Source: Halichondria panicea (Eukaryota > Porifera > Demospongiae > Suberitida > Halichondriidae). From it: a DNA stretch of 64,000 nucleotides. Both the position numbers and the translations under genes were made by a program. The stretch is from assembly GCF_963675165.1 (NCBI RefSeq), contig NC_087386.1, forward strand, positions 4,656,169 to 4,720,168, read 5' to 3'. The notes under the pieces were generated by a model, which was not told the DNA's origin, did no database searches, and saw only the letters and a list, made by a program, of their open reading frames with translations. How positions within the stretch are numbered: the stretch's first letter is position 1; every line of letters begins with the position of its first letter. Shown piece by piece: positions 1 through 64,000 of the stretch.

Positions 1-1185
1 CTAACGTTACAGTATCATGACGGTTCGAGCTGTGGAACAAAGATGTCAACGAGTCTTCATTATTAATTTTGATACGTATCAACGTGTACAGCATTCAAAA
101 TGCAGTGACTTGACATATCCTTGGATGTTATAAGATAATTTCTATCAGCATTTCAAGTTCTATAATTATGGTTTCTTCTTTTTTCAATGTCACAGACAAT
201 GAACTATTACTGTTATGAAATGAACGAAAGTTGAATGAATATACCAAATTCCGGTACACGTTTGACAGTTTCTAGCAGATATAGTTTTCACTGTCATAAT
301 AGGTTAATAGACTCAATGGTGCTGCTAGACAGTGATAGTGACTGTACAATGGAAGTCATCTATGACAAAGGTCAATGGCTTTATTTTTTTGCTTAGGCAT
401 AATTATGAGTTCACAGAGAAGAACATCACAATCCATTAAAAGTTGTTGGTCAATATGCGAATAGACTCCACTTCATCAGTAACAAGCATTTTCAAGCAAT
501 CAACAGAAATGAAGGAGTTCCATAAGTTTCGTGAAACGATAAGTAATAAATCTTCATTTGGCTTATAATCTTCTTCCAGTCAGTAATAGCGAATCAAGAG
601 AACATTAATTTTAACAGTTAGTATATGAGGTCTGATTTGCTCCCCGCAAGTTTGGATAGATGAATTTCTAGTATCAGGATCAGATTTGAAATGTAGTCCG
701 GAACAAGGAAAGTTTCATATGAGGATACTCCAAACTGTCATCATGACCATACTTTAGAATAATTGTTTGTTTTTATTCTTGATATGAAAATCCACCTATC
801 TTGGTCGTTTCTATTTGGCGCAATGGCAAAGCTACACCGGAATCAAGGTGATTTCCAATACTGTTGAGATTATCAAGAGAAACAATACTATTTGACAGCA
901 TAGGAGGTTGTCGATGACAAATCACAGAAGGAGACTAATACTCTTCTATTAAATTGCATAAGCATTGGATGGCGATAACTGATGGGGTCACACTTGTCAC
1001 AGCTTGTAAAGATTTGTGGAAGGTTTGGAATTGAAAGCTCTGATAATGTGCTGATAATGTGCTGGTGTCAACAAATCCAACCAAACCTTTTTCAACAGTC
1101 GGTCTTAATGATTAGCAGGAGTAAGGAAATAGTAGTTGTAGCATCAGAATTTTGTTATATAATACGATATATGTGCGCACATTGA
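1..1185 (-). pseudogene. Decayed NLR LRR fragment (copy A)
   Basis: On the minus strand this is recognisable as LRR-region coding sequence of the neighbouring NLR genes, broken by stops, frameshifts and missing segments. It is nearly identical to 18549-19725, where translated pieces such as LLGFVDTSTLS-like and GNHLDSGVALPLRQIET can be aligned with intact NLR-B. The fragment is cut by the window edge. No intact reading frame remains, so it is a relic that was duplicated together with the gene beside it. Confidence 0.8.
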
Positions 1186-1419: not shown

Positions 1420-4400
1420 TTAAAAGTGACTATGAAGACGATCTTCAATGTGTCTTGTATTTCTGATGTTGTGTAAAGATGCAGGATAAGGTGTATTGTG
1501 TATCAGCTTCCCTTTTGGCTGAAGTATAGTGCGTAATTCTTGAATCTGACAGGGAGAAAATTGGCACTGACAAGTGTACAGATTGATAATTGGTCCACTT
1601 TGAAGTAGTTCCTTCAATGCATCGAAGGCTTCTTTGGAAATTGCATTCGTAGAAATACTGAGGGTTTGAAGGGAATTATTTTGGTTAAGAATTGTGAAGA
1701 CTTTCCTCCAATCAACTGATTGTATTGTAGGCCTGAAATTAGACATTCTGAAATATCCAGTTGTAACTTTGAAACCATCAAGTACTAGGTCCTTTAGAGT
1801 GAAATTACTACCTAAACCTGTAGCTATGTGCTCATAAACTGAGTCGTGAATGTCACTAAATGATATACCCAGAGTATGCAAGCATCTATTTTCTTTCACC
1901 ATAAATTCAATAGCTGGACCAACACTTTCATTCAAAGTTTTAAGTAAACTCAGGTGTAATACTTTAAGTTTGCTGTTTTTCGAGAGCCCTTTCATTAATT
2001 GGCATAATACAGTAGCGTCGATATCGCACGCGTTTAGAGTTAACTCTTGCAGATGTTGATTTTCCTCAAGCATAATTTGAAATGTTCCACCAAGATCTTC
2101 ACTGGTACAATCTACTTTCAAATTTATGAATGATATTTCTAGAACTACCAGGAAAGAATTGTGGTTCAGAGTTTTGAAAAATTGTAACCCTAGAGATTCT
2201 TTGGAGGTGGTCGATGTCGAAAAAAATGTTAATACTTCAAACGTTCTACCAGAAACTAGAAGATGTGGTGTTGCAAATGAACACTTCAAAATATGGAATG
2301 TTGTAATGGAGCTATTGGCAAGTTGAGTGAGCTGTTTGATTTGCAATTCAGTAAGATTGGCATCAGCCATTATCAGCTCCGTGTGTTGATTTGCTTGAAG
2401 CAAATGCTTTACAAGCGAAGCAATAAGCATAGAAGAGTTTTCGGTGCTCGTTTTCCAACAATATTTTATTGCTTTATCTAATATGATGATAAGTGAAAAC
2501 TCAAGAAATTTCATTTCCTTCAGATTAGTTGTTAGCAAGATCGTGAGGGATTCTTCATCACAGCTGGTCCCTGATACATCTAGTTTCTGAACTTGGGGCA
2601 AATCTCTTAGTGTGTATGACAGTTTTTGTAATTGCTTTTTGTTGAGATCACAATCCGTTAGCTTGATGGAATTTAAAGTTTTGCTTTGGGAAAGTAAATC
2701 ACACAATGCTTGTATCGCTGTTTCCCCTTTACTTCCACAATTTGAACAATCTTTAAATGCTCTTCTCTGGCCAGAAAAATTGCAGTATTCAAGGTACTGT
2801 GGTTCAGGTAACTGTGTGAAAAAACTAAATGCATTGGGGCAGATACAGAGATCTGTGTGATACTTAGCTAGGAGGTCAAATTGATGTCCCCGAATGAATA
2901 TACTATCAGGATTTCCGCTGGATGTTATCCTTATAGTATATAGTTTTTTCTGCTTGACAAGAGATTCAGCCAACGTAGCAGTATCGTAACAAGATCCTTT
3001 AACCTGTGAAAAACATACACTTGATATATGAGGATTGTTCGAGACAAATTGTGATATTGACTGAGCATTCAAGTAGCAGTGATTTGAAATAGATATGTTT
3101 GAGGTTTTAGGGGAAAGTTTGATAGTTTCTATAAGCATTTGAGCGTCTGTCACATCTTCATTCAACACAATGGCAGACAACGAATTCAAATTCAAAACAT
3201 TATATATATCGTATGATTTAATTGTGAATGTGTATCCACCAATCTCAATTTGTACACGGTCTACAAACATTGAGATTAGATCGCAGATGGTGTTTACTTC
3301 CATATAAATTTCTTCAAAGTTAACAGACTCAACATTGCTGCTAGACTGCAGTAGTGACTGTACAATGGAATGTGATACTTTCTTCGTGAGGTTACAATTT
3401 AAGAGCTCAATGGATCTTAACTTTTTACTGGAGTAAATCAGTTTACAGAGGTTATCGACTAGTATATCACATTTATTAAAAAGTTCTATACCTCTTATGC
3501 AAAAAGTTTCCATCTCGAAAGTTACAAATCCAAAAAGAGTTTTCAAGGATTCAATAGAAAAAGGTAAACTGTTGGAGTACTGATTAGATATAGATATAGA
3601 GCTTCGCGTAAGCGCTACAGCATAACTTGAATGTGCTTCCATCTTATGATCTGCTACTTCCAGATTTCTTAATAGTGAATTAAGTTTATACATATCCACA
3701 ATTACTACAAAATTATTGAGGTGTTGATTTGCTTTCCATAGCATTGCAACTCTGTATACAACAGTTTCTAGCTTGGTAGCCTCAATATGATTTGTTATCA
3801 GGATCACATTGGAAATGTAGTCTGGAAGAAGGAAAGTTTCATGAGGATACTCCAAGTTCTTTAAACCATAGTAGTTGCAGGGATAACAATCAGGAAGATA
3901 CTTTAGAGTAATTGTTTTGCTGTAGCTAGCACACAAAAAACCACCTACCTCAGTTATTTTTGTTTTGCACAGCGGCAAAGCTACATCAGAATCGAGATGA
4001 TTTCCATGAATACGAAGATTATTTAGAAAGCCAGCTGTCATAATAGGGGAGGGAGGGGGAGGGGGGGCAGGGGGGGCAGGGGGGGCAGGGGGGAAGAAAC
4101 AGCGGGAAGATCGTTGAAGAGAGTGGAGGAGAGTGGGGGAGAGTGAAGGAAAGTGGGAGAAAGTGGGGGAGAGTGAAGGAGAGTGGGGGAGAGTGGGGGA
4201 GAGTGAAGGAGAGTGGGAGAGAGTGGGGGAGAGTGAAGGAGAGTGGGAGAGAGTGGGAGAGAGTGAAGGAGAGTGAAGGAGAGTGGGGGAGAGTGGGGGA
4301 GAGTGAAGGAGAGTGGGAGAAAGTGAAGGAGAGTGAGGGAGAGTGAAGGAGAGTGGGGGAGTGTGATTACTACTAACAGCAGATAGTAGGCAATCCATGG

Positions 4401-7400
4401 AATCAGTTGATAGATTACAAAAGGAGACATCAACATCTTGCAAACTGCTACTGTTCTCTATAATGTCACAGAAGCTGGTGAGGGTATTGGATGATGACTG
4501 GTCACACGTTTCACAGTTTGTAAAAATTTGGGAGCAGTATCGTAGTGACAGTTGTGATACATTTTGGATGTCAATGAACCCTAGTAGTTTGTTGAAAGAG
4601 TGGGTGCATATGCTCATCTCTTTACGATTAATTACTATGCTCTTCTTCGAAATTATTGATGAAGAAACACATACGCTTATTAATTTCTTGCTGTTTGTAA
4701 TGGCTGAACACAGTGTCTTTACCATGTCATGGCTCATTGCCTCAGTAACTGCAAATGATATTTCTTCAACAGTGTCAAACACAGGTAATAGCGTAGCAAC
4801 GTTAACATGTCTTAACGACAAAATTTTACACATTCCAATTGCATTTGCCTCAACGTTTCTTGAATGCATTGCTGTAAAAACCATGCTTTCGAGAGGTAAA
4901 TGGCAGCCTTTGAAGTCAATAAGTTCCCAATAATGATGAGCAGGTGTAAAGGAAATAAATCTCGTAATAATAAATGCGTCAAATCGAGTCAGAGCTTTAT
5001 TGGATAAATCAAGAATGTTGGATTTGATAGGAATCACTTGTGAAGAAGCCTGTAGCTGGCTTTCATACACAAGATGTGCTAGCAGTAGAAATTTCTCTTG
5101 AGCAGACTTTTTATGTTCATCAATGCTGCTGGTTAAATCCAATACACTATCTCCTAAAAGACGTTCATTTGGTGGTAAAAATTTTAATTTTGACAGGCCA
5201 GCCAGAAAAAGAATGACCATTCGAAACCTGGAATTATCCAAATGTGATCTGAGAAAGTCCAGCTTGTTTTCTGAAGACAATACTAAGTGTCTAGCAGCTA
5301 GAAACTCTTGAATGGTTAAATGAAGAAACTGGTAGTTACACTTCATGCTTGTTGCTGTAATGCCATGATGTGAGGTCAGTAGTCCAAGACGTAAAACCTC
5401 CTTATTATTCACATCCTCATATTGGAAAGAAAGCTTATCTTGTAGCATACCAGTGTATGCTATATTGCTAAGCTGGTCAAGATTGCGTAGAATGTGTGGT
5501 GGAAGATTGCTCAAACTATCTAAGGAACGGATGTCGTCTATCTCCCCCAAATTTTCTTTGCATTTTTCAATGTGGTGCTTTATAGTATGTAAAACAAATA
5601 TCTCATATAGCTCTGTGATGGTAGCTGGTAGGTTATACTGGAGACATTGGAATACAAAGAGCACTATTCTGCAGTTGAGCGGAATGTAGCACAATGAAAG
5701 TATGTCAAGACGATCTTTAAGCATTTGAATCAGTGTCTCTGCATGTACCTTGTTGATCAAATTTTTATCCACATAGTTTATTATTTGTTGCTTCGAGAAT
5801 CCTAGAACTTCAACACGCCGATTGACACGCGTTAGCGTTTTCAAAACCCCTGAAGCATACGGCCGAGATGTAATTAATATTGAACAATTTTGAAGCATAT
5901 TTCCATCAATAATTTTTAAACATAAGGAGGGTTTGGACCTACAATTTTCGCTTAGCTCATCAAAGCCGTCTAATACTAACAAAACCTGCTCACCCAAAAT
6001 ATCTGGGTTTTCGAGGTATTCAGCCACCTCACTCACCTGACTTAAAGTCGCAGAAGGTAAAAGATGAACAACTTTAGTTTCTTCGTGAAATTGAATCTCC
6101 CTTAGCTTAACCAGAATGACTAGATGATACTCCTTGAGAATTTCACCATTAGCCCAATCAATGCATAATTTTCTAGTGATGGTAGTTTTACCAACTCCTG
6201 GAGCACCATCCATTAATATTGTTAGGCGACTTTTTTGTGTTAATGAGTTTATGATAGGATAAAACACTTCATTCATTTCAATCTCTTCCTTTTTAGCAAT
6301 AATATTGTCTACTTTGCCATGAATATAGTCATGTTCCATTGTAGATGATTCTTTATAATAACCTGAAGCGTGAATAAGTGCTAGCTTAGTGTATTGTTGT
6401 TTATTATCTCTTTCCACAGGCCAATCATTTGGCATTACAGGCATTTGCTTGTAAACAGTTTTTAGGTACCTAGCGTAATTCGTAACATATTCAGGAGGAT
6501 CAGGAAACAAGTGATTTGCGGCAATGAAATCATCTAGCTTTAATTCTGCAAGACGAACATATAATTATGTTGAGTCAAATAGGTTACGTGCTCGATAGGC
6601 CCTGATAAGTATTCTCTGTGTAGTTAAGGCTTGGGTCAGGCACTGATTACCAACATTTAATGTAGATGATGTAGTGTTAAGGAGATTCATAACCATTATT
6701 AATGTTATTCATTGCAATTGATGTCAGTGTCAAGAAGAAGTCAAGGTAGATCTACTTGCTTAGCTAGCTGCTGGAACTATTGTACAGAATCTTTAGCAAC
6801 AAATGCGGTGGACTTGCACAAGGTAAGACTAGTTGTTTAGGCCCTCAAAAGATAGAGTAGGTTGTCATGATTATATTTCAAGCGGGGAAGTCAATATGTA
6901 CAAAACTGCCTTAGCTATACTGGCTTCTTTAGCTCTGACAGCCACTCTAGAGGTAGGCTATGCTGTGTATCTCAAGAATACAGTAACTCCTACTCTTCCC
7001 CCGCCGGATATTAGTACCTAGCAATGATAAGTTCATCTAGCCTTGTGAAGCTTGACTTAGCATCTTCATGGCCGTATTTGTAGTTCATAGTGGCATGACG
7101 TCATCACCATTTTTGGGGCTAATTAGAATTAAGCTAATTAGTTTTTTGGAAAAAGAAAACATTGAGCTTCATTTTGGATCATTTTGATGCAGCATACACT
7201 GTATATTGCAAATAATACAGCAGTATGAACATAGTGTTAAATTTTGGTATTTACAGCCAGACCTGGGCCTTAACTACGCAGAGTTATTTTTCGCCAGCAT
7301 GATTCTATTCTTGAAAAATGTGCCTGTATTATTATTCTTAAGCAAAAAGTAGAATTACAATGTCTATACAATGTCTATATAAACAAAACGCACACAACTG

Positions 7401-8972
7401 ACACAGCACGAGATTGAGTCATACAATTATGTTGTGTCAGTTGTGTGCGTTTTGTTTATGCCTATACACATTGTACGTCTTTTAATTATGTCAACTTTTG
7501 GGGAATAATCTAAAATTATATATACAGGCACATTTTTCAAACTGCGGGGGAATAATAATAATCATGACTCTCAACGTATCTACATAGCTGACTTGATATC
7601 CACGTTCAGCCATTTTTTGCATTTTAGCCACGAATGGGAGGGATATATACCGTTAGGGCTAGTAAGTTATGCAACACTTAATGAAAATTAATGATATTTA
7701 CCAAAAATGGACATTCCCTGGGGTTTATATAGACACCTATAATGCTAACATTAATTCCAAGCATTATCAAGGGCTAGTGCTCAAAGTATCGTTCTCACCA
7801 TGTGATGAGCAGAATTTCTCTGCTTCATTTGTCAAGTTTGCTCTGATAAGTGCTGCAAGAACATTTTTCTTCATATCACGTCTGTTTTCTTGCTGCTTTT
7901 GAAGTATAGTTTCCAATATAGATCTAGATGCATTATCTCCTAATTTTAGCTTTATTTCTTCTAATTTGACAACTTGTGTTGAATACTCTTCACTGAAAAA
8001 ATCGTCCACATCATGCTGTAACTCAAAAGACAGTTGCATAGAAAAGTGCATGTATTGTTCTGTTTTGTATGACGTTTCTAGGTACTTTTTAAACATAGCA
8101 TTTTTCAGCATAATAAATTTTTCTGAGACAGATATGTCATATAAAATATAATAATATTTGTAGTCCTCCTTTATCAGACTTAATATTGTATCCTCAAGTC
8201 CAAGCCAGAGACCTACTATATACCAATCTGCTCCGAGATAAATTTCACACAACTCCTCTAGTGTTGGTGCTCCTATCAAAGCCAATTCTTCATATTTGGC
8301 TTCTGAAAATAATTATGAATAAAATTAATATATAATTACTATTGCAATAGACTTATTACTTACCTGAAATTTGTTCGGGCAGTCCAACTGCTTTTCGCTC
8401 CTCTCCACGTAGTGATTGTATCGTTCTGACAATATCTGAGCGGCCAATAACTCTACTATCTAATGCTTTGAACAGATCGTAAATGGTTGCTTTGCCAGTC
8501 TGCATCCACTGCACCAATACTTCATTCAGGCATTCGCTAATATTATGCTCACTTTCTTTAATTGCATGTATATCACCATCTTTTAAGCCTAACTTACGCC
8601 CAATGTCCTTCCACTGTGATCGTGCATCCCAAATCTCCTCTTTTAGTGGCATCAAATGAGTGTCCACTCTGAGAACTGCATTTAATATATTGCAACTATA
8701 GCGTTTATTGAGTTACACAATCAACTACAACACGTCTATAGTGGCCTAACTAATGCTTTTCACCATCCTGTATGTTAGAGATAATTATAAGAGCAGCTAT
8801 GCAAGGGGAGTCTAGATATATCTACATGTAGCTATATCTATATATTATTACATTTGTATTATTATATGCATGCATGGACAAGGATTTTATATAACCTACT
8901 TTTAAAAACAAATCACATGCACAAGTCGATTATAGACTCACGGATTCTTGAGTCAGGTTCAGGTCCAGCCAT
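1420..8972 (-). CDS. NLR-A: Death-NACHT-LRR receptor, four exons, about 1990 aa
   Basis: Predicted intracellular innate-immune sensor. Minus-strand exons: 8972-8942, 8675-8364, 8302-7799, 6545-1420; phases close. The ATG at 8972 begins MAGPEPDSRI and is conserved in NLR-B. Exon 2 is a Death domain (DARSQWKDIGRKLGL). Exon 3 opens with a second Death-like helical module (TLEELCEIYLGADWY). Exon 4 has NACHT with Walker A GAPGVGKTT near residue 400, Walker B LLVLDGFDEL near 475, sensor SILITSRPY and a winged-helix segment with FLHLTIQEFLAA, then long ribonuclease-inhibitor-type LRRs. NACHT proteins are STAND ATPases that oligomerise on sensing a ligand; the ligand here is unknown. Oddities: a Pro/Ser minisatellite inside the LRRs, and a 1253-nt third intron that is 48 nt in NLR-B. 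Confidence 0.9.
4035..4360. repeat. Coding minisatellite within the NLR-A LRRs
   Basis: Positions 4121-4360 are 24 copies of a 10-bp unit, gagtgaagga or gagtggggga with variants. Positions about 4035-4095 are G-runs with a CAG every nine or so bases. Read on the minus strand they encode a ten-residue repeat (HSPSLSPTLL type) followed by PAPPAPPPPP. The stretch stays in frame with the LRR exon and is absent from the matching site of NLR-B near 22550. Confidence 0.95.
6546..7798 (-). other. NLR-A intron 3, expanded by inserted repeat DNA
   Basis: Donor G|GTGAGAAC (intron starts 7798) and acceptor CTTGCAG (intron ends 6546) are shared with a 48-nt counterpart in NLR-B (24770-24723). The extra 1.2 kb is AT-rich and non-coding. 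It contains nested inverted repeats: an outer pair around 7312-7327 and 7523-7540 (aaaatgtgcctg type), and a long inner stem at about 7378-7404 and 7433-7459 (aacaaaacgcacacaactga). Confidence 0.75.
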
Positions 8973-9887: not shown

Positions 9888-10327
9888 AAATAAATAGTTG
9901 GCTGACTACATTAGCAGCTGTATGTACATCACATAATTATGGCGTAGGCAAGAGGACAAGGCAAGGAAAAAATGACCCAAATTGTATGATCTAAGGTAGA
10001 TCTACTGCAGTTATAATGTAGAAACAGGTGGCAGTGCTTCTGTCGTGCGATACACAGTATAATAGAAAAATCAGTAGCTGTTAATTACTCAGTGTTACTG
10101 CTCACCCCAAGGAGAATATGTCCATGCCATGAGTGAGGACCTGAGACCTCCCACTGAGTTCCCCCCCGTGGTGGCCAGCTCCTGAAATGGCTGGAACCTC
10201 TCAGGAGCAATGTAGCATGTCCGCTGACGAGAGGTGTCAAAAAAGAAAGAAAAATCTGCTGGATTGTTCTGAAGAGAAAAGAAATCACAATTACGAGCAG
10301 GAAAAAAACTCTATAGGAACGAACAAA

Positions 10328-10400
10328 TGGAGAATCCGGGTATCGATCCCAGTACCTCTTGCATGCAAAGCGAGCGCTTTACCACTTGAGCTAATCCCCA
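10328..10400 (-). tRNA. tRNA-Ala (UGC), array unit 1, probably degenerate
   Basis: Minus-strand 73-nt cloverleaf: TGGGGAT acceptor side, GCTC D-stem, anticodon loop TTTGCAT and T-loop ATCGATA. The first base is T instead of G and the anticodon stem has one C-A mismatch (CTCGC/GCAAG), so function is doubtful. Confidence 0.65.
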
Positions 10401-10465
10401 CACATTAGACTAAAGGTTCGCTAGTAACCTGGAAATTAAAGTTCAATTTACAGGCAGGCAAAAAA

Positions 10466-10538
10466 TGGAGAATCCAGGCATCAATCCTGGTACCTCTCGC
10501 ATGCAAAGCGAGCGTTCTACCACTTGAGCTAATCCCCC
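10466..10538 (-). tRNA. tRNA-Ala (UGC), array unit 2, probably degenerate
   Basis: Acceptor GGGGGAT pairs with ATTCTCC and the anticodon stem CTCGC/GCGAG is perfect. One D-stem pair is lost (GAAC instead of GAGC) and the T-loop reads ATTGATG instead of ATCGATG, damaging box B. Likely a pseudo-tRNA or weak gene. Confidence 0.65.
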
Positions 10539-10604
10539 ACACATTAGACTAAAGGTTCACTAGTAACCTGGAAATCAAAGTTCAATTAATAGGCAGACAA
10601 AAAC

Positions 10605-10627
10605 TGGAGAATCTGAGTATCGATCCC
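10605..10627 (-). pseudogene. tRNA-Ala fragment, array unit 3
   Basis: Only the 3' 23 nt of a tRNA-Ala (T-arm and acceptor side) remain. The rest of the unit is deleted, which shortens this repeat relative to its neighbours. Confidence 0.75.
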
Positions 10628-10672
10628 TAAAAGGTTACGGAACAGTTCAATTTGCTATAGGCAGACAAAAAA

Positions 10673-10745
10673 TGGAGAATCCGGGTATCGATCCAGGTAC
10701 CTCTCGCATGCTAAGCGAGCGCTCTACCACTTGAGCTAATCCCCC
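10673..10745 (-). tRNA. tRNA-Ala (AGC), array unit 4
   Basis: Minus-strand 73-nt cloverleaf with acceptor GGGGGAT/ATTCTCC, D-stem GCTC/GAGC, anticodon stem CTCGC/GCGAG and loop TTAGCAT (anticodon AGC). The T-stem CCTGG/CCCGG has one mismatch; T-loop ATCGATA. One of the two best-preserved units and a plausible functional gene. Confidence 0.75.
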
Positions 10746-10810
10746 ACACATTAGACTAAAGTTTGCTAATAACCTGGAAATTAAAGTTCAATTTACAGGC
10801 AGGCAAAAAA

Positions 10811-10883
10811 TAGAGAATCCAGGCATCGATCCCGGTACCTCTCGCATGCAAAGCGAGCGCTCTACCACTTGAGCTAATCCCCC
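10811..10883 (-). tRNA. tRNA-Ala (UGC), array unit 5
   Basis: All four stems can form: acceptor GGGGGAT/ATTCTCT with several G-U pairs, GCTC/GAGC, CTCGC/GCGAG and CCGGG/CCTGG. Anticodon loop TTTGCAT, T-loop ATCGATG. The spacer on either side repeats the motif cacattagactaaaggttcg shared with the other units. Confidence 0.78.
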
Positions 10884-10923
10884 ACACATCAGACTAAAGG
10901 TTCGCTAATAATTACAGGCAGAC

Positions 10924-17859: not shown

Positions 17860-19725
17860 CTAGAACAGCAAAAATTCGTTTTGAAGTATTGACAATCCAT
17901 AAATATAATCAAGGGTGTATCGACTAATTAAGTCCCTTGTTTTTTTGTAAGTGTATTGTGTATCAGCTGCCAAGTTTAGTGCGTATAGTTGTTGAATGTG
18001 AGAGTCATCATGCATGGCATTTGCAAACGTATTTAGAACCACACAGAAGTAGTTCGTTTAATGTGCTGAAGGCGTCTTCAGCACATTCAAATTAGATGTT
18101 AGAAGGATCTTGAGGGATTCTGCATTACAGCTAGTCCCTGAAACATTTAGTTCGTGAATTTGGGGCAAATCTTTTAGTGCGTTCAATAGTTTTTGCAACT
18201 GTTTTCGTTTAGATAACAATCTTCTAGCTGAATAGACTATAGATTTTTGCTTTGGGAAAGTAGGTCACACATGCTTGTACTGCTGTTTCCCCTTTCACAA
18301 TTTGGACAATCTTCAAATGCTTTTCTCTGGCCAGATAAGTTGCAGGATTTGAGGTATTCGTGGTTGCAATGAGGTAACCGTGTGTGAAGAATTGAAGTGC
18401 ATAATTAGCGCAGATACACAAGTTCTCGCTGTACATGGCTGGTAAATTAACTTCCTTCCTGGAAATGGTGAAGTAAAAAAGTAAAAAAGATTTGTTCGAC
18501 ATTGATTTTAGTTTAACTGTTTTTCCTGCCAGTCAACAAGGCATTTAGCTAACGTTACAGTATCATGACGGTTCGAGCTGTGGAACAAAGATGTCAACGA
18601 GTCTTCATTATTAATTTTGATACATATCAACGTGCACAGCATTCAAAATGCAGTGACTTGACATATCCTTGGATGTTATAAGATAATTTCTATCAGCATT
18701 TCAAGTTCTATATGGTTTCTTCTTTTTTCAATGTCACAGACAATGAACTATTACTGTTATGAAATGAACGAAAGTTGAATGAATATACCAAATTCCGGTA
18801 CACGTTTGACAGTTTCTAGCAGATATAGTTTTCACTGTCATAATAGGTTAATAGACTCAATGGTGCTGCTAGACAGTGATAGTGACTGTACAATGGAAGT
18901 CATCTATGACAAAGGTCAATGGCTTTATTTTTTTGCTTAGGCATAATTATGAGTTCACAGAGAAGAACATCACAATCCATTAAAAGTTGTTGGTCAATAT
19001 GCGAATAGACTCCACTTCATCAGTAACAAGCATTTTCAAGCAATCAACAGAAATGAAGGAGTTCCATAAGTTTCGTGAAACGATAAGTAATAAATCTTCA
19101 TTTGGCTTATAATCTTCTTCCAGTCAGTAATAGCGAATCAAGAGAACATTAATTTTAACAGTTAGTATATGAGGTCTGATTTGCTCCCCGCAAGTTTGGA
19201 TAGATGAATTTCTAGTATCAGGATCAGATTTGAAATGTAGTCCGGAACAAGGAAAGTTTCATATGAGGATACTCCAAACTGTCATCATGACCATACTTTA
19301 GAATAATTGTTTGTTTTTATTCTTGATATGAAAATCCACCTATCTTGGTCGTTTCTATTTGGCGCAATGGCAAAGCTACACCGGAATCAAGGTGATTTCC
19401 AATACTGTTGAGATTATCAAGAGAAACAATACTATTTGACAGCATAGGAGGTTGTCGATGACAAATCCCAGAAGGAGACTTATACTCTTCTATTAAATTG
19501 CATAAGCATTGGATGGCGATAACTGATGGGGTCACACTTGTCACAGCTTGTAAAGATTTGTGGAAGGTTTGGAATTGAAAGCTCTGATAATGTGCTGATA
19601 ATGTGCTGGTGTCAACAAATCCAACCAAACCTTTTTCAACAGTCGGTCTTAATGATTAGCAGGAGTAAGGAAATAGTAGTTGTAGCATCAGAATTTTGTT
19701 ATATAATACGATATATGTGCGCACA
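17860..19725 (-). pseudogene. Decayed NLR LRR pseudogene (copy B)
   Basis: Minus-strand relic of an NLR LRR exon. Positions 18060-18540 follow NLR-B 21040-21490, and 18549-19725 follow 21500-22745, but with frameshifts, stops and missing blocks. A part near 17900-18050 resembles the protein C-terminus, implying internal deletion. The longest remaining frame (19628-19317) still reads GNHLDSGVALPLRQIET as in NLR-B. It lies 235 bp from the NLR-B stop and is repeated beside NLR-A, so it was present before the duplication. Confidence 0.85.
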
Positions 19726-19959
19726 TTGAACATACGAGCGATCGAGGCAATTCAAGTGTGAGGGGTTTGAAGTCTGGTCTCTCCTAGCTGCAACAATTTA
19801 TCCACACCAGAAATTATGTGTAGTATATCAATTAGTCTACGTAGATGCAGTCAACAAATCCTAAGTAACATAAAATTGTATATATAAGTGTACAATGTAG
19901 TGTAAAACTGCTTACTGATGAATTAGCTAAGAGACAAATATTGGTTTCCTTTTGACTAT

Positions 19960-22900
19960 TTAAAAGTGACTATGAAGACGATCTTCAATGTGTCTTGTAT
20001 TTCTGATGTTGTGTAAAGATGCAGGATAAGGTGTATTGTGTATCAGCTTCCCTTTTGGCTGAAGTATAGTGCGTAATTCTTGAATCTGACAGGGAGAAAA
20101 TTGGCACTGACAAGTGTACAGATTGATAATTGGTCCACTTTGAAGTAGTTCCTTCAATGCATCGAAGGCTTCTTTGGAAATTGCATTCGTAGAAATACTG
20201 AGGGTTTGAAGGGAATTATTTTGGTTAAGAATTGTGAAGACTTTCCTCCAATCAACTGATTGTATTGTAGGCCTGAAATTAGACATTCTGAAATATCCAG
20301 TTGTAACTTTGAAACCATCAAGTACTAGGTCCTTTAGAGTGAAATTACTACCTAAACCTGTAGCTATGTGCTCATAAACTGAGTCGTGAATGTCACTAAA
20401 TGATATACCCAGAGTATGCAAGCATCTATTTTCTTTCACCATAAATTCAATAGCTGGACCAACACTTTCATTCAAAGTTTTAAGTAAACTCAGGTGTAAT
20501 ACTTTAAGTTTGCTGTTTTTCGAGAGCCCTTTCATTAATTGGCATAATACAGTAGCGTCGATATCGCACGCATTTAGAGTTAACTCTTGCAGATGTTGAT
20601 TTTCCTCAAGCATAATTTGAAATGTTCCACCAAGATCTTCACTGGTACAATCTACTTTCAAATTTATGAATGATATTTCTAGAACTACCAGGAAAGAATT
20701 GTGGTTCAGAGTTTTGAAAAATTGTAACCCTAGAGATTCTTTGGAGGTGGTCGATGTCGAAAAAAATGTTAATACTTCAAACGTTCTACCAGAAACTAGA
20801 AGATGTGGTGTTGCAAATGAACACTTCAAAATATGGAATGTTGTAATGGAGCTATTGGCAAGTTGAGTGAGCTGTTTGATTTGCAATTCAGTAAGATTGG
20901 CATCAGCCATTATCAGCTCCGTGTGTTGATTTGCTTGAAGCAAATGCTTTACAAGCGAAGCAATAAGCATAGAAGAGTTTTCGGTGCTTGTTTTCCAAGA
21001 ATATTTTATTGCCTTATCTAATATGATGATAAGTGAAAACTCAAGAAATGTCATTTCCTTCAGATTAGTTGTTAGCAGGACCGTGAGAGATTCTGCATCA
21101 CAGCTGGTCCCTGATACATCTAGTTTCTGAACTTGGGGCAAATCTCTTAGTGTGTACGACAGTTTTTGTAATTGCTTTTTATTGAGATAACAATCCGTTA
21201 GCTCGATGAAATTTAAAGTTTTGCTTTGGGCAAGTAGATCACACAATGCTTGTACTGCTGTTTCCCCTTTACTTCCACAATTTGGACAATCTTCAAATGC
21301 TTTTCTCTGGCCAGAGAAGTTGCAGGATTTGAGGTATTGTGGTTGAGGTAACTGTATGAATAATTGAAGTGCATTAGGGCAGATACACAAGTTCTCGCTG
21401 TACATGGCTGGTAAATTGAGTTCCTTCCTGGAAATATTGAAGTAAAAACCAGATTTGTTCGACACTGATTTTAGTTCAACTATTTTTTCCTGCCCAACAA
21501 GGGATTTAGCTAACGTTGCAGTATCATGACATGATCCTTCGAGCTGTGGAATAAAGATGTCAACTAAGTTGGGAGTCTTTATTATCAATTTTGATATCAA
21601 CACAGCATTCAAAATGCAGTGACTTGACGTTGTAAAATGTATCCTTTGGATGTTAGAAGGGAACTTCATAATTTCTATCAGCATTTCAAGTTCTATGGTT
21701 TCTGCTTTCTTCAATGTCACAGACAATGAACTATAACCGTCGTGAAATGTACGAAAGTTAAATGTGTACCCAACAATTTCAATTTTTACAATTGCCGGTA
21801 CACGTTCGACAGTTTCTAGCATCGAGACCAGGTTACAGATAGTTTTCACTTCCATAATCTCATTTCCTTCGAGGTTAATAGACTCAATGGTGCTGCTAGA
21901 CTGTGATAGTGACTGTACAATGGAATGTAATGTTTCTTTTGTGAGATTACAATTAAAAAGGTCAATGGCTTTTATCTTTTTGCTCAGGCATATGAGTTTA
22001 CAGAGAAGAACATCACAACCCATTAAAAGTGTTTGGTCAATTATGTGAATAGACTCCACTTCATCAGTAACAAATCTGAAAAGCATTTTCAAGCATTCAA
22101 TAGTAATGGAACTTTTACAAAGTTCCATAATAGATACAGAGTTCCGTGTAAGTGCAGATCCGGTAAGTAAGGAATCTTCATTTGGTTTATAATCTTCTTT
22201 TTCCAAGTTAAGTAATTGCCAATCAAGATTATATTTAATAGTCATTATAAAGTTTTTGAGGTGCTGGTTTGCTCGCCATAGCACTGCAAGTTTGGATACA
22301 GGAATTTCTAGCTTGGTTATTTCATTCAGTATCAGGATCACATTTGAAATGTAATCCGGAACAAGGAAAGTTTCATGAGGATACTCCAAACTGTCATCAT
22401 GACCATACCTCAAATGCTCTAGAATAATTGTTTTGTTTTTACTCTTGCATGAAAATCCACCTATCTCGGTCGTTTCTATTTGGCGCAATGGCAAAGCTAC
22501 ACCGGAATCAAGGTGATTTCCAATAATATTGAGAGAAACAATACTATTTTTTACAGCAGATAGAAGGGCACCGATAGATTCGCTTGATAAATCACAGAAG
22601 GAGACATTAACATATTTCAAGCTACTACTCCTTTCTATTAATTTGCATAAGCTGGTGAGGGTATTGGATGGCAACTGGTCACACTTGTCACAGCTTGTAA
22701 AAATGTGTGGAAGGTATGGAATTGAAAGCTCTGATAATGTGCTGGTGTCGACAAATCCTAGTAGTTGGTTGAAAGAGTCCGTACACATGCCATCGTACAT
22801 ATCTCTAGAGCTTAACGTTAAGCTTTTCTTTGAAATTTCTGATGAAGGTAAATTAATTTTTGTCAACGTCTGGCTACTTGTAATGGCCATACACATTTCT

Positions 22901-25900
22901 TTCATCATGTCGTGGCTAATCGTCTCTATCAAGAAGAATGACAACTCAGTAACAGCATTCATTATAGGTAATACTGTAGCAAAAGTAACACATCCTAATG
23001 ATAGAATCTTAGACATTCCTATTGCAATCATTTTAGAATTTATTGAGTGCATTGCTGTATAAATACTGCTTTCATCTGGTAATTGACAGTCTTTTAAGTC
23101 AATAACTTCCCACTTATGATTAGCAGGGGTAGCAGAAATGTATTTAGCAATGATAGTAGCATCAAATCGAGTTAGATGCCTACCAGATAAATCAAGAATG
23201 TTGGATTTGATAGGAATCACTTGTGAAGAGTCCAGTAGCTGGCTTTCATAAACAATATGTGCAAGTAGAAGAAATTTATCTTGAGCAGATATTTTATGTT
23301 CATCAATGCTGCTGGTTAAATCCAATACAGTATCTCCTAAAAGAGGCTCATTTGGTGGTAAAAACTTTAACTTTGACAGACCAGCCAGAAAAAGACAAAC
23401 CATTCGAAACCGGACTTTCTCCAAATGTGATCTGAAAAAATCCAGTTTGTTTTCTGAAGATAACATTAGGTGCCTAGCAGCTAGAAACTCTTGAATTGTT
23501 AAGTGAAGAAACTGGTAGTTACACTTCATGCTTTTTACTGTAATACCATGATGTGAGGTCAGTAACCCAAGACGCAAAACATTTTTATTATCATTTTGGA
23601 AAGAAAGCTTATCTTGTAGCATACCAGTGTATGCTATATTGCTAAGCTGGTCAAGATTGCGTAGAATGTGTGGTGGAAGATTGCTCAAACTATCTGTGGA
23701 ACGGATGTCGTCTATCTCATCCAAATTTTCTTCACATTTTTCGATGTGGTGCTTTATAGTATGTAAAATAAATGTCTCATATAGCTCTGTGATGGTAGCT
23801 GGTAGGTTGTGCTGGAGATATTGGAATACAAAGAGCACTATTCTACAGTTGAGGGGAATGTAGCACAATGAAAGTATGTCAAGACGATCTTTAAGCATTT
23901 GAATCAGTGTGTCTGCATGTGCCTTATTGACCAAATTTTTCTCCACATAGTTGATTATTTGTTGCTTTGAGAATCCTAGAACTTCAACACGCCGATTTAC
24001 ACGTTGTAGTGTTTTCAAATACCCTGAAGCATACGGCCGAGATGTAATTAATATAGAGCAATTTTGAAGCTTTTTTCCAGCAATGATTTTGGAAAAGAGG
24101 GATTGCTTGGATCTATTCTTCGCACTTAGTTCATCAAAGCCATCAAATATTAATAAAACATGTGCACCTAAACTATCGGGATTTTCAAGGTGTTTAACTA
24201 CCTCTTTCACTTGATCTAAACTCTCAAAAAGCAAAATATCCACAATTTCATTTTTTTCATTAAGTTCAAATTCTCTTAGCTCAACTAGAATGACTAAATG
24301 ATATTCTTTGAGAATTTCACCCTTGGCCCAATCAATGCATAGTTTTCTAGTGATGGTTGTCTTACCAACTCCAGGAGCACCGTCCATTAATATTGTTAGG
24401 CGACTCTTTTGTGTCACCAAGTTTATGATAGGATAAAACACTTCGTTCATTTCAATCTCTTCTTTTTCAGCAACAATATTGTCGACTTTTCCATGAATAT
24501 AGTCATGTTCCATTGTAGATGATTCTTTATAATAACCAGAAACATGAATAAGTGCTAGCTTAGTGTATTGTTGCTCAATATCTATTTCCGGAGGCCAATC
24601 ATTTGGCATTACAGGCATTTGCTTGTAAGCTCCTTTTAGGTAGCTAGCATAACTTACAACACATTCAAGAGGATCAGGAAATAATAAGTGATTTTCGGCC
24701 ATGAAATCATCTAGTTTCATCCCTGCAGCAAAAACATATAAAGCATGGCTCACAAAGCGTTCCTTCTCACCTTGTGTTGAGCAGAATTTCTCAGCTTCTT
24801 CTATGAAATGTGCTCTGAGAAGTGCTATAAGCATATTTTTCTTCATTCCATGTCTGTTTTCCTGCTGTGTTTGAAATAGTTTTTGAAATGTAGCTACTTT
24901 ATGACTATCTCCTAATTTTTGCTCTATTTCTTCTAATTTGTTAACTTGTGTCGAATACTTTTTGCTGAAAAAATCGTCTACATCATACTTTACTACCAAA
25001 GACAGTTGCGAAGAAAAGTGCCTGTAATGTTCTGTTTTGTAAGACTTTTCCATGTATTTTTTAAACATCACATTTTTCAGCACAAGTAAATTTTCTGAGA
25101 GAGATAAGACATCAGAATATTCGTAGTACTTTATGATGCTTAATGTTGTATCCTCAAGTCCGAGCCAGAGACCTAGTAGATACCAATCTGCTCCAAGAGA
25201 AATTTCACACAACTCTTCTAGTGTTGGTGCTCCTATCAAAGCTAATTCTTCACATTTGGTTTCTGAAAATAAGCTTCAATAATAATAATTATTCAATGAA
25301 ATAAACTTACTTACCTGAAATTTCTTTAGGCAGTCCTACATTTTCCCGCATCTCTCCTTCCAGTGATTGTATTTTACTGACAATATCTGAGCGGTCAATA
25401 TCTTTACTCTTTAATGCTTTTAACAGATCATAAATGGTTGCCTTGCCAGTCTGCATCCATTGAACCAGTACCTTAGTCAAGCATTGGCTGGTATCATGCT
25501 CACTTTCCGCTTTAATTGCGCGGGTATCACCATCTGTTAAACCTAACTTACACCCAATCTCCTTCCACTGTGACCGTGCATCCCAAATCAGCTCAAACAG
25601 CGGCGTCAGATGAGTGTCCACTCCAAGAACTGCATTATAATTATTGCAACTATAATTATAGCGTTTATTGAGTTACACAATCAACTACAACACGTCTATA
25701 GTGGCCTAACTAATGCTTTTCACTATCCTGTATGTTAGAGATAATTATAGGAGCAGCTAATAACGAGTGTTGCAAGCGTGCACTTGCTAATGCCTCTTGC
25801 CATGTTTTTGCTTTCGCTCAAAAGTATTAGAGTGTTATAGAAGAGGTAAATAATTTGCAATGTGCTTTGATTGTTTCACAAGAAAGGGGTGTCCACAGTT

Positions 25901-39652: not shown

Positions 39653-41560
39653 ATGGGGAGGATATTTATTGATCACCCTGGCGGAACCAGAGTATATTCA
39701 TGCACCAACTGTGACACAGCCCTAACCAACCGCTCTGAACTAGTCTCAACGGTGAGTGTCAGTCATATCTACGGTGGCCCTGAGCGTTACTCTAAGTTGA
39801 CAGTTCACACTTGATAGTTCACGTTCGCAGTTGGTAGTTCGCAGTTGATAGTTGATAGTTCACGTTCGCAGTTGGTAGTTCGCAGTTGATAGTTGATAGT
39901 TCACGTTCGCAGTTGGTAGTTCGCAGTTGATAGTTGATAGTTCGCGTTCGCAGTTGGTAGTTCATACTTGGTAGTTCGTACTTGGCAGTTCATACTTGGT
40001 AGTTCGTACTTGGTAGTTCATGACCTTTGAACTTTAACGTTGCACTTCACTCTGAGTTAAAGATTCTTAACTGCCTCCATGATCCACTGCACCTAGCTAT
40101 TAAATGACGCGTACCCCTGTTCATGTTACTGACAGTGAGTAACCTGTTCATGTTACTGACAGTGAGTTTACTTGTTTTTTGTTTTTATGGTCGTGATGAG
40201 TTTACTCACTGTCAGTAACATGAACAGGGGTACGGGTAGCGGTAGTCATTTAATAGCTAGGTGCAGTGGATCATGGAGGCAGTTAAGAATCTTTAATAAG
40301 AATTAACTCGGAGTGAAGTGCAACGTTAAAGTTCAAAGGTCATGAACTACAAAGTACGAATTACCAAGTATGAACTGCCAAGTACGAACTACCAAGTATG
40401 AACTACCAACTGCGAACGCGAACTATCAACTATCAACTGCAAACTACCAACTGCGAACGTGAACTATCAAGTGTGAACTGTCAACTTAGAGTAACGCTCA
40501 GGGCCACCGTACATATCAGACGTTTAGTGAGTCAGCACATACCATTACGTGTTCTTGATTGTTACAGAGATTCACTGGAGCCACAGGACGGGCATTTCTA
40601 TTCAACAGAGTGTAAGAAATAGTCTAGACTTGTGTGTACGTGTAAACCCTCTGTAGTGCAGTGACGACCATGAAATTCATTTCTTACAGAGTTAACCTTC
40701 TCTTCAGTGAAGTAGAAAACAGGATAATGGTTAGTATATGAAAATTACAACTATTGTAAGCAGGGCTGCATTGAGGGGGGTAATTCGCCTCCCCTGGGAC
40801 AGTTTTCCTCCCTTAGGATATGGCAGATTCATTTGTACTGCTATAATTCTGATGTCTTCGCCCCTCCTACATTTTTAAATTGCCCAATTCTCCCCCCCCC
40901 CCCTGATACAAATCCTGGATGCAGCCCTGGTAAGTGTTGTTTTCTTTCTTTGCAGCTGACTGGTAGACATATTGTCAGAGATGTATCGTGTAAAAACTGT
41001 ACTACAAGACTTGGGTGGATCTACGTAAGTGAAAATCCTACAGTACATAATGTAATGTAGGTGCGGTTTTGTCATGGGTCGAGTTTGAGTAACATGTATC
41101 AGTTGTAAGAATCATGATGTAATTATTGTATTGTTGTGCAATGTACTCAGGAGTTTGCAACGGAAGACTCACAGAAATATAAGGTGGGTGTCATTTTTAC
41201 TACGCATTTCCAGTAGTAATTTGTTAGTGATGCATCCTATCAATGTGTTTCCCCACTACTCGATCCCTTCCCCCCCCCCCCCCTTGACTCTGACATTTTT
41301 GGCCCCGTACTTGGGGGATTTGATTTTGCCTTGCATACATGTGCAACCCATGTTGACCAGGGGGAATTGGAAGACAGAATCTCCCCAACCATAGGGAGTT
41401 TGACCCACCCCATGTTAGCCCTACCCCTCCTGGGGGGTAGGGGGAGTAGTGGGAAAACAAATTGATAGGTGCGTTACCAAGTTATCTCTTTCAGGAAGGG
41501 AGAGTCATCCTGGAGAGAGCACTCATCACTGAAAGTGAAGGCATCGAAGATGTCGAATGA
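39653..41560 (+). CDS. YPEL5: Yippee-like protein 5, six exons, 116 aa
   Basis: Exons: 39653-39751, 40568-40611, 40690-40729, 40956-41024, 41151-41183, 41495-41560; all phases close. The product starts [20 protein letters not shown] and carries the two zinc-binding CxxC pairs (CTNC; CKNC within [13 protein letters not shown]), [19 protein letters not shown] and [20 protein letters not shown]. It is close to vertebrate YPEL5 (121 aa). YPEL5 is associated with the CTLH/GID ubiquitin ligase and with centrosome and mitotic structures; that role is transferred by homology. Three introns carry inverted-repeat elements, and intron 1 is almost filled by a 750-bp palindrome. It is divergent from IARS2. 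Confidence 0.95.
39766..40515. repeat. Giant foldback element filling YPEL5 intron 1
   Basis: The left arm starts at acggtggccctgagcgttac (39771) and the right arm ends with its complement at 40510. The arms are about 300 nt, with tracts of tandem subrepeats (agttcgcagttgatagttga type) and a second inner palindrome (ttcatgttactgacagtgag, 40120-40230). The left arm carries more subrepeat copies than the right. No coding capacity. Confidence 0.9.
40761..40929. repeat. Small foldback element in YPEL5 intron 3
   Basis: Ends cagggctgca and tgcagccctg form short inverted repeats around a sequence with G and C homopolymer runs. Miniature-transposon-like. Confidence 0.55.
41232..41472. repeat. Foldback element in YPEL5 intron 5
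   Basis: The arm gcatcctatcaatgtgtttc with following ccccactact pairs with agtagtgggaaaacaaattgataggtgc on the right. The interior has C12 and G-rich runs. Confidence 0.75.
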
Positions 41561-59097: not shown

Positions 59098-60110
59098 TGT
59101 AGTGCAAAATGTAAATAGTATAAGCTATCACCCCATGGACAAAGTTGACCAGTCGAAACCAGTGTAACTGACACGTGAGGACACATACACACAAAATCGT
59201 AAATCAGTATGCTAGCTATCACCCCATGGACAAAGTTGACCAGTCGAAACCAGTGTAACTGACACATGAGGACACATACACACAAACTTGTAAATCAGTA
59301 TGCTAGCTATCACCCCATGGACGAAGTTGACCAGTCGAAACCAGTGTAACTGACACATGAGGACACATACACACAAACTCGTAAATCAGTATGCTAGCTA
59401 TCACCCCATGGACGAAGTCGACCAGTCGAAACCAGTGTAACTGACACGTGAGGACACATACACACAAACTAGTAAATTACAATGCTAGCTATCATCCCCA
59501 TGGACGAAGTTGACCAGTCGAAACCAGTGTAACTGACGCATGAGGACACATACACACAAACTGGTAAATTACAATGCTAGCTATCACCCCATGGACGAAG
59601 TTGACCAGTCGAAACCAGTGTAACTGACGCGTGAGGACACATACACACAAACTGGTAAATTACAATGCTAGCTATCACCCCATGGACGAAGTTGACCAGT
59701 CGAAACCAGTGTAACTGACACATGAGGACACATACACACAAACTGGTAAATTACAATGCTAGCTATCACCCCATGGACGAAGTTGATCAGTCGAAACCAG
59801 TGTAACTGACGCATGAGGACACATACACACAAACTGGTAAATTACAATGCTAGCTATCACCCCATGGACGAAGTTGACCAGTCGAAACCAGTGTAACTGA
59901 CACGTGAGGACACATACACACAAACTCGTAAATCAGTATGCTAGCTATCACCCCATGGACGAAGTTGACCAGTCGAAACCAGTGTAACTGACACGTGAGG
60001 ACACATATACACAAACTCGTAAATCAGTATACTAGCTATCACCCCATGGACGAAGTTGACCAGTCGAAACCAGTGCATGAAGACACGAACTCGTAAATCA
60101 GTATGCTACA
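59098..60110. repeat. Satellite array, 11 copies of about 91 bp
   Basis: Each unit contains gctatcaccccatggacgaa, gttgaccagtcgaaaccagt and gaggacacatacacacaaac. Units are highly similar; neighbouring ones share variants (cagtatgc versus tacaatgc), suggesting block-wise duplication. The last unit is truncated. Confidence 0.95.
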
Positions 60111-62735: not shown

Positions 62736-62770
62736 ACTTGTAGTGATTCGTTGTAGTGATTCGTAGCGGT

Positions 62771-63203
62771 GTCCGAACCTCCTCTGGGTGTAGTTCAGTG
62801 TATATTAGTTCAGTGTCCGAACCTCCTCTGGGTGTAGTTTAGTATATATTAGTCCGAACCTCCTCTGGGTGTAGTTCAGTATATATTAGTTCATTGTCCG
62901 AACCTCCTCTGGGTGTAGTTCAGTGTATATTAGTTCAGTGTCCGAACCTCCTCTGGGTGTAGTTCAGTGTATATTAGTTCAGTGTCCGAACCTCCTCTGG
63001 GTGTAGTTCAGTGTATATTAGTTCAGTGTCCGAACCTCCTCTGGGTGTAGTTCAATGTATATTAGTTCAGTCCGAACCTCCTCTGGGTGTAGTTCAGTGT
63101 ATATTAGTTCAGTGTCCGAACCTCCTCTGGGTGTAGTTCAGTATATATTAGTTCAGTGTCCGAACCTCCTCTGGGTGTAGTTCAGTATATATTTGAGTTC
63201 AGT
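62771..63203. repeat. Tandem array, ten copies of about 44 bp
   Basis: The unit reads gtccgaacctcctctgggtg followed by tagttcagtgtatattagttcagt. Two units are shortened by about 10 bp (near 62850 and 63070). Confidence 0.95.
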
Positions 63204-64000
63204 GTATATTTGTAACATTTCATAACGTGCAGACACAGTAAATTGAATTTGCAGTGATTCATATATACCACATGTTTGACCTTCTCTGCACATGTGTGTA
63301 GAACTGGGTGTTATAATCATGTGCAGAAGAGGTCACATGCAGTAGGAATCACTATAGTGTTTTCCAGCAGGGCTGAACTTTTAGTGATTCTTATGGCCTC
63401 AAAATACAGAAAAAGTATACAGCACATGGTGTGTGTGCAAAGGAGGTTGGACTATAGGGTTATTTGCTCAGGTTACCATACAACTTACCTCTGGCTTTAC
63501 TGAGCTTATAATATCTGGCTAGCTGTGTGGATTAGCAAGGGTTAGCAGTAATGTATCTAGCTTGCATAGGAATCTAGTAAAAAGTGTATGCACTGATAAC
63601 AGAATGGAGGGGATTGCTGGGGATCATGCGCAGGTTGGTTAATGACTACTAGTATAAGTAGCCAGAGAGTCACAGAAAGTTTGCCTCCTAGTCTCCAATG
63701 ACTATGAAAAACCAGCTAGAAGTAATCATTAATTGTCAACAAGCTCAGCTAAAAGTAGTAGTACATGGGTATAAATAACCTTCTGGTGTGTGTGTGTGTG
63801 TGTTTGTGTTGAAAGTAGATAAGGTTACCACAAAACACAGCAAATGTGCTTACTCTGCCACATCTTGCTACCACAGACAAGTGCATGGCCCTAGTCTAAC
63901 AGCCACCAGCCATGCTAGCTATTGAGCCACCACCACATGAATCTAATTCCCACCACTTCTGAGAAAGGTAAATTCTAGGAAAGCAGGCAATGAATACACC
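63204..64000. other. End of window, no gene identified
   Basis: AT-rich sequence with a short (GT)n run near 63786-63805. No supported gene. Confidence 0.4.

Follow-up and report, generated by a model that had tools for sequence, protein, structure and literature searches.

In human duplicated genes, tandem repeats lying in coding exons have been reported either to be kept as variable amino-acid repeats or to be spliced, sometimes as new introns (PMC2812944). Exitrons are described as having weaker splice sites, with about half of their lengths being multiples of three (PMC4484396), and the "mirage" minisatellites found at exon borders in amphioxus have been put forward as one way in which new introns could form (PMC3087553).

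Here we consider a 10-bp minisatellite located within the open frame of an NLR gene, NLR-A, in a stretch of 64,000 nucleotides from Halichondria panicea (hereafter the window; features are collected in Table 1). Non-LRR segments inserted within an LRR solenoid are exemplified by the TLR9 Z-loop and the BRI1 island domain; the array is likewise a probable insert in an LRR solenoid, but differs from both in being of low complexity and in occurring in one paralog only. With the human duplicated genes, as that study presents them, it shares a minisatellite that differs between recent paralogs and lies in a coding exon, although transcripts and polymorphism are known there, whereas here there is a 10-bp unit, an animal NLR and DNA alone (PMC2812944). 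The likeness to exitrons lies in a stop-free intra-exonic segment with a length divisible by three, in weak splice sites and in a probably disordered product; exitrons, however, are described as arising mostly from ancestral coding sequence, in contrast to the NLR-A segment, which comes from a repeat and for which splicing is a candidate (PMC4484396). The amphioxus repeats are also minisatellites in an invertebrate gene with a possible bearing on intron gain, but they are reported to span an existing splice border, whereas the paralog of NLR-A is without an intron at the site (PMC3087553). As for the phase-variable coding repeats of bacteria, these too are in-frame repeats in which a change of length can truncate the product; compared with them, as described, the array is an imperfect repeat in mid-gene, in an animal host, and is represented here by a single sequence (PMC3899988). 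The array fits these known kinds, and the new details are its host gene and its 10-bp unit.

Table 1. Position of the minisatellite, its host gene and related features in the window
Feature	Position	Strand	Details
NLR-A main exon frame, NACHT + LRR region	1423..6564	minus	1,714 aa open frame; contains the array
Death-domain exon frame upstream of NLR-A	8364..8712	minus	Pfam Death E 1.2e-10 on 8356-8712
NLR-B frame, paralog without insert	19963..25275	minus	Pfam NACHT E 3.7e-25
Related NLR fragment, closer to NLR-B	1..1053	minus	Covers the insert site without the array (blastn to NLR-B)
10-bp minisatellite	4119..4365	minus	24.7 copies, score 291 (Tandem Repeats Finder)
C-rich tract, polyproline part	4046..4093	minus	9-bp array, G-rich on + (Tandem Repeats Finder)
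Insert relative to NLR-B	4027..4365	minus	339 bp = 113 codons; borders uncertain by a few codons
Alternative weak intron/exitron	4035..4377	minus	Donor GT 4377, 4373 or 4370; acceptor AG ends 4035

The host gene, its relatives and the site of the insert

NLR-A and its paralog NLR-B encode proteins that are 75% identical in a global alignment. The NACHT domain of NLR-A takes up residues 115-270 (Pfam, E 1.3e-23), and we infer that the Death-domain exon upstream is joined to the main exon by splicing; with regard to Death-NACHT-LRR membership, a NACHT domain and a Death domain were both found, the latter on a separate exon frame. At E values up to 1 no Pfam LRR family was listed for NLR-A. The NLR-B sequence gave weak matches to the LRR protein 4r5d (E 5.2e-6) and to LRRC34 (E 2.2e-4), and the sequence matches of its NACHT part among solved structures included NLRP3 entries and 5irm (rabbit NOD2). 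A pair of Death-NACHT-LRR genes with short GT-AG introns would suit an invertebrate such as a sponge. In Dysidea avara, 126 genes combining NACHT and LRR regions have been reported (PMC12909245). Genes of this kind occur in other animals too. A search for relatives of 727 amino acids of NLR-B confirmed none of 15 pattern matches in prokaryotic contigs, a poor place to look, and none of 5 in viral contigs.

Comparison of the two paralogs delimits the insert to within a few codons. A tblastn match of NLR-A to NLR-B breaks off after residue 733 and starts again at 849, only 6 bases of NLR-B separating the two parts, and the global alignment places a single 113-residue gap at the array, between the conserved LLSAV and GNHLDS; the corresponding site of absence in NLR-B lies at about 22537-22542. 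The array is likewise absent from the related NLR fragment, where the site aligns at 790-1100, and from a 98% copy of this fragment within 18549-21387, where it aligns at 19330-19650. Over 622 columns of the part downstream of the site, the fragment shares 87.3% identity with NLR-B, compared with 65.1% for NLR-A. On a tree of the fragment, NLR-B and NLR-A, parsimony does not separate a gain in NLR-A from a loss in the line of NLR-B; given that the LRR pattern is interrupted by the array, a gain in NLR-A would seem the likelier of the two.

We also considered whether the array marks a point where segments of different ancestry meet. This candidate was rejected because dS against NLR-B is similar on both sides: the LRR part that precedes the array already has 0.77, and the part that follows it 0.80. 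As a separate observation, positions 1-2847 and 18549-21387 are 98.3% identical over a block that covers the C-terminal parts of NLR-A and NLR-B together with downstream NLR fragments; this block is read as recent gene conversion or duplication, the middle LRR parts standing at a dS of about 0.8.

With regard to its place in the protein, the original prediction had the repeat exposed among the LRRs, and of this the loop position appears likely from two structure models, both of low confidence and with two sequences each. In the model of the NLR-B segment the site falls between helix 191-200 and strand 207-211 (mean pLDDT 46.9), and in that of NLR-A helix 191-203 is followed by the next strand only at 320-326, the insert being coil (mean pLDDT 36.2); the models agree with a loop insertion and go no further, the probable site of the insert being the loop that leads from an LRR helix into the next strand. 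The fold matches listed for the NLR-B model include NLRP1, NLRP7, NLRP14, NOD2, ribonuclease inhibitor and tropomodulin, but also plainly unrelated enzymes, and 1 of the 927 reached E 0.001.

Repeat structure and reading frame

Both the array, with its period of 10 within the open NLR-A frame and its absence from NLR-B, and its conceptual translation as an HSPSLSPTLL repeat followed by polyproline proved to be as originally predicted. On the coding strand the units are of the type CTCTCCTTCA / CTCTCCCCCA and are imperfect, with 81% identity at lag 10; Tandem Repeats Finder also called the tract with a period of 30 (8.1 copies, 4115-4355, score 349). Read in the NLR-A frame they give HSPSLSPTLL-like decapeptides and then PPAPPAPPAPPPPPSP, the C-rich tract lying 3' of the array on the coding strand, and the 119 residues from LLSAV to LRIHGN are 26% P and 24% S. 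The pyrimidine content of the array region, 0.896, is the highest of any 250-bp stretch on the coding strand (the maximum on the other strand is 0.68), and its AG-free run of 335 bases is the longest in the window, the next on that strand being 157. The array and its composition are far beyond chance.

The frame itself is less informative than it might appear. The array is stop-free in all three frames of the coding strand and in none of the three on the opposite strand, a consequence of composition and orientation, and its openness therefore says little in favour of coding. With a unit of 10 bp, near-identical decapeptides are read in each of the three frames, and it is the frame at the exit from the array that counts; for a pyrimidine insert of this kind the prior chance of being in frame is about one in three. 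The prediction that 24 units (240 = 3 x 80) set the frame holds in that the array is in frame here, but the determinant is the whole 339-bp insert. The further claim that a change of one or two units breaks the downstream frame was borne out by computation: simulated changes brought stops after 838 (-1), 841 (-2), 851 (+1) and 848 (+2) residues, and the frame stayed open at -3, 0 and +3 units. The two off-frame stops, at 4040-4038 and 4021-4019, lie 26-33 codons past the array and within 9 codons past the C-rich tract. Off-frame lengths thus truncate the computed product, as at a phase-variable locus, and a mechanical switch is possible since one- or two-unit changes bring a stop and three-unit changes do not.

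The array is not a uniform 10-mer. Unit identity at lags 1, 2 and 3 is 0.813, 0.805 and 0.876, respectively, and in 20,000 shuffles of the unit order lag 3 alone gave p 0.071, lag 3 against lags 1 and 2 gave p 0.011, and the best of lags 2-6 reached the lag-3 value with p 0.30; lag 6 alone gave p 0.005, a value that a 3-unit pattern would yield too. The 30-bp pattern is present in units 1-15 (lag-3 identity 0.925) and broken in units 15-24 (0.814, which does not exceed the values at lags 1, 2 and 4 there). For the register to break, either the array must have changed at least once by a number of units not divisible by three, or substitutions must have followed later. As a sign of frame-keeping growth the 30-bp pattern is ambiguous and suggestive at most.

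Several other repetitive features were observed in the window. Positions 4046-4093, adjoining the minisatellite, form a dense G-quadruplex-type motif on the + strand, which is the template strand of NLR-A, and a few more motifs of this type occur elsewhere. Tandem arrays lie at 59123-60075 (91 bp x 10.5 at 96%) and 62769-63205 (44 bp x 10.1 at 93%), and 39811-40486 holds 14/41-bp repeats that are GTTCGCAGTTGGTA-like and then ATGAACTACCAAGT-like, the latter resembling, by eye, the opposite strand of the former. Three tRNA-Ala genes are found on the minus strand at 10465-10884, the first of them within a 139-bp tandem duplication (10325-10613).

Splice signals at the edges of the array

Both splice models were built from genes of the window only, in which protein continuity was used to assign 13 donors and 12 acceptors by eye. 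These comprise two introns each in NLR-A and NLR-B, which form two homologous pairs and are not independent, two in an isoleucyl-tRNA synthetase gene, and the remaining 7 donors and 6 acceptors in a gene for an aminotransferase similar to kynurenine aminotransferase. The exon order of this gene, above all at the borders K3 and K6, leans on similarity within the family, and the set leaves out the acceptor that follows donor K7. The acceptor model spans 15 bases and leans towards T.

Among the assigned donors A or G stands at +3 in 13 of 13 and G at +5 in 12 of 13, and none of the three donors at the edge of the array combines the two. In leave-one-out scoring the assigned donors range from 3.03 to 12.17 (n=13), as compared to 0.78 for the edge donor at 4377, -2.61 for 4370 and -5.41 for 4373, which rank 52, 120 and 176 among 231 GT; the acceptor AG at 4035 scores -3.68, rank 212 of 281 AG, and the assigned acceptors -0.04 to 11.34 (n=12). 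Splicing from 4377 would lead to a stop after 732 residues, and 4373 and 4370 would keep the frame. The spliced-frame test covered donors up to 4700 (donor scoring went further up), and between the array and this position no in-frame GT donor reaches the range of the assigned scores. GT 4507, at 4.41, is inside the leave-one-out range, but splicing from it gives a stop, and a GC site at 4691, which scores 4.65 with +2 left out versus 4.41 to 11.12 for the assigned donors, keeps the frame but deletes LRR sequence. The possibility that the array is an intron, which the original prediction had set against itself, is disfavoured on these signals because the edge sites score below all assigned splice sites, and retention of the array is favoured over full or partial splicing by a modest margin.

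The paralog also holds a caution here. At 24723-24770 NLR-B has a 48-bp stop-free in-frame segment with GTGAGA...GCAG ends, and its counterpart in NLR-A is a stretch of 1,253 bp (6546-7798) with 37 stops and GT...AG ends. An open frame is no proof of an exon at this locus because of this match, and the NLR-B segment is probably, to judge by the alignment, a very short intron that resembles exon.

Strong donor-like sites were also noted inside the NLR-A frame, at 6036 (CAG/GTGAGT, 13.07) and 3948 (GAG/GTAGGT, 8.65). Within the longer NLR-A intron, 7379-7459 matches its own reverse strand (84.7%) and might be a small hairpin transposon.

Competing readings and their meaning

The explanation we prefer, if with confidence only a little above even, is that of a paralog-specific, translated low-complexity loop insertion in NLR-A. 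A pyrimidine-rich minisatellite would have arisen in, or inserted into, a helix-strand loop of the NLR-A LRRs after the split from NLR-B. With splice signals this weak and a frame that is intact further downstream, the array would most likely stay in the mRNA, in frame, giving a disordered loop of about 113 residues rich in Pro, Ser, Leu and Thr, beyond which the LRRs would continue. An allele with one or two units too many or too few would then encode a receptor truncated near the middle, and such alleles would be expected as ordinary loss-of-function variants and not as a demonstrated programmed switch. The main rival to a translated loop is partial, exitron-like splicing. That the array is intronic or exitron-like, spliced wholly or partly from donor 4373 or 4370 to AG 4035, we regard as rather unlikely, though a good deal of what is observed would agree with it: the 335-base AG-free run ends at this acceptor, the 50 bases before it have a pyrimidine content of 0.88, the highest among the AG sites listed, and the array segment contains ten branch-point-like yTnAy motifs. 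Removal from 4373 to 4035 leaves six residues in LLSAV-LRIHGN, by eye the same count as in NLR-B before LNIIGN, and a DNA alignment without a gap at the site; the open segment of NLR-B and the human minisatellites that are reported as kept or spliced (PMC2812944) point the same way, as do the weaker splice sites described for exitrons (PMC4484396). Since 339 bp (4373) and 336 bp (4370) are multiples of three, neither splicing nor retention would disturb the frame, and the length of the array would be irrelevant whenever it is spliced. Against this stand edge donors and an acceptor that fall below every assigned site, the lack of an adequate in-frame GT up to 4700, the stop that follows from GT 4507 and the loss of LRR sequence that use of GC 4691 would entail.

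Alternatively, NLR-A might be a decaying copy, or the length of the array might be mis-assembled, the frame then having no functional meaning; this we think improbable. Runs of G are prone to assembly error. Tandem repeats are also reported to be so (PMC6868369), and NLR fragments lie nearby. Differences found in NLR-A only, where NLR-B equals the fragment, show no third-position excess (157 sites; 48, 50 and 59 at codon positions 1, 2 and 3; p 0.49), yet this test is not specific to NLR-A because the changes may sit on the NLR-A or on the NLR-B/fragment branch; NLR-B-only (6, 5, 8) and fragment-only differences (19, 16, 12) show no preference either. Decay is opposed by a frame that is intact over 1,714 codons and by a pairwise dN/dS between NLR-A and NLR-B of 0.30 (519 codons, 6564-5000), 0.40 (207 codons, up to the array) and 0.49 (374 codons, from the array to 2848, before the converted tract) in the three non-converted parts; the nearly identical C-terminal part gives 0.39 at a dS of only 0.048. 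In the DNA alignment of 4034-2848, moreover, 12 of the 13 gaps have lengths divisible by three; the remaining one, of 14, is the first listed in NLR-B. Finally, the original prediction had proposed that length mutation could switch the downstream LRRs on or off; on this reading, individuals or cells would differ in the length of the array, and selection would act on it. The stops that off-frame lengths meet soon past the C-rich tract and the 30-bp pattern of units 1-15 are in line with this proposal, but it did not gain support from a single sequence in which the 3-unit pattern has p 0.30 over lags 2-6 and is broken in units 15-24. The units are also imperfect, and impurities are reported to lower repeat mutability (PMC3899988). 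We therefore hold such a switch to be very improbable, and give as little credence to its fuller form, a hypermutable frame gate in which individuals or cell lineages, differing by one or two units, would make the complete receptor with its Pro/Ser loop or a form truncated near residue 840, growth by 30 bp being favoured because it preserves the frame.

Were the array truly switching, it would represent phase variation in an animal receptor, of which no case was evident in a narrow look at the titles and abstract openings of open-licence papers. If it is spliced, the repeat would have given rise to an intron whose retention also leaves the frame open. If it is translated, as we prefer, a non-triplet repeat would extend the sensing domain of an immune receptor, and NLR-A would offer a natural test of whether frame limits the length of a repeat in an animal gene.
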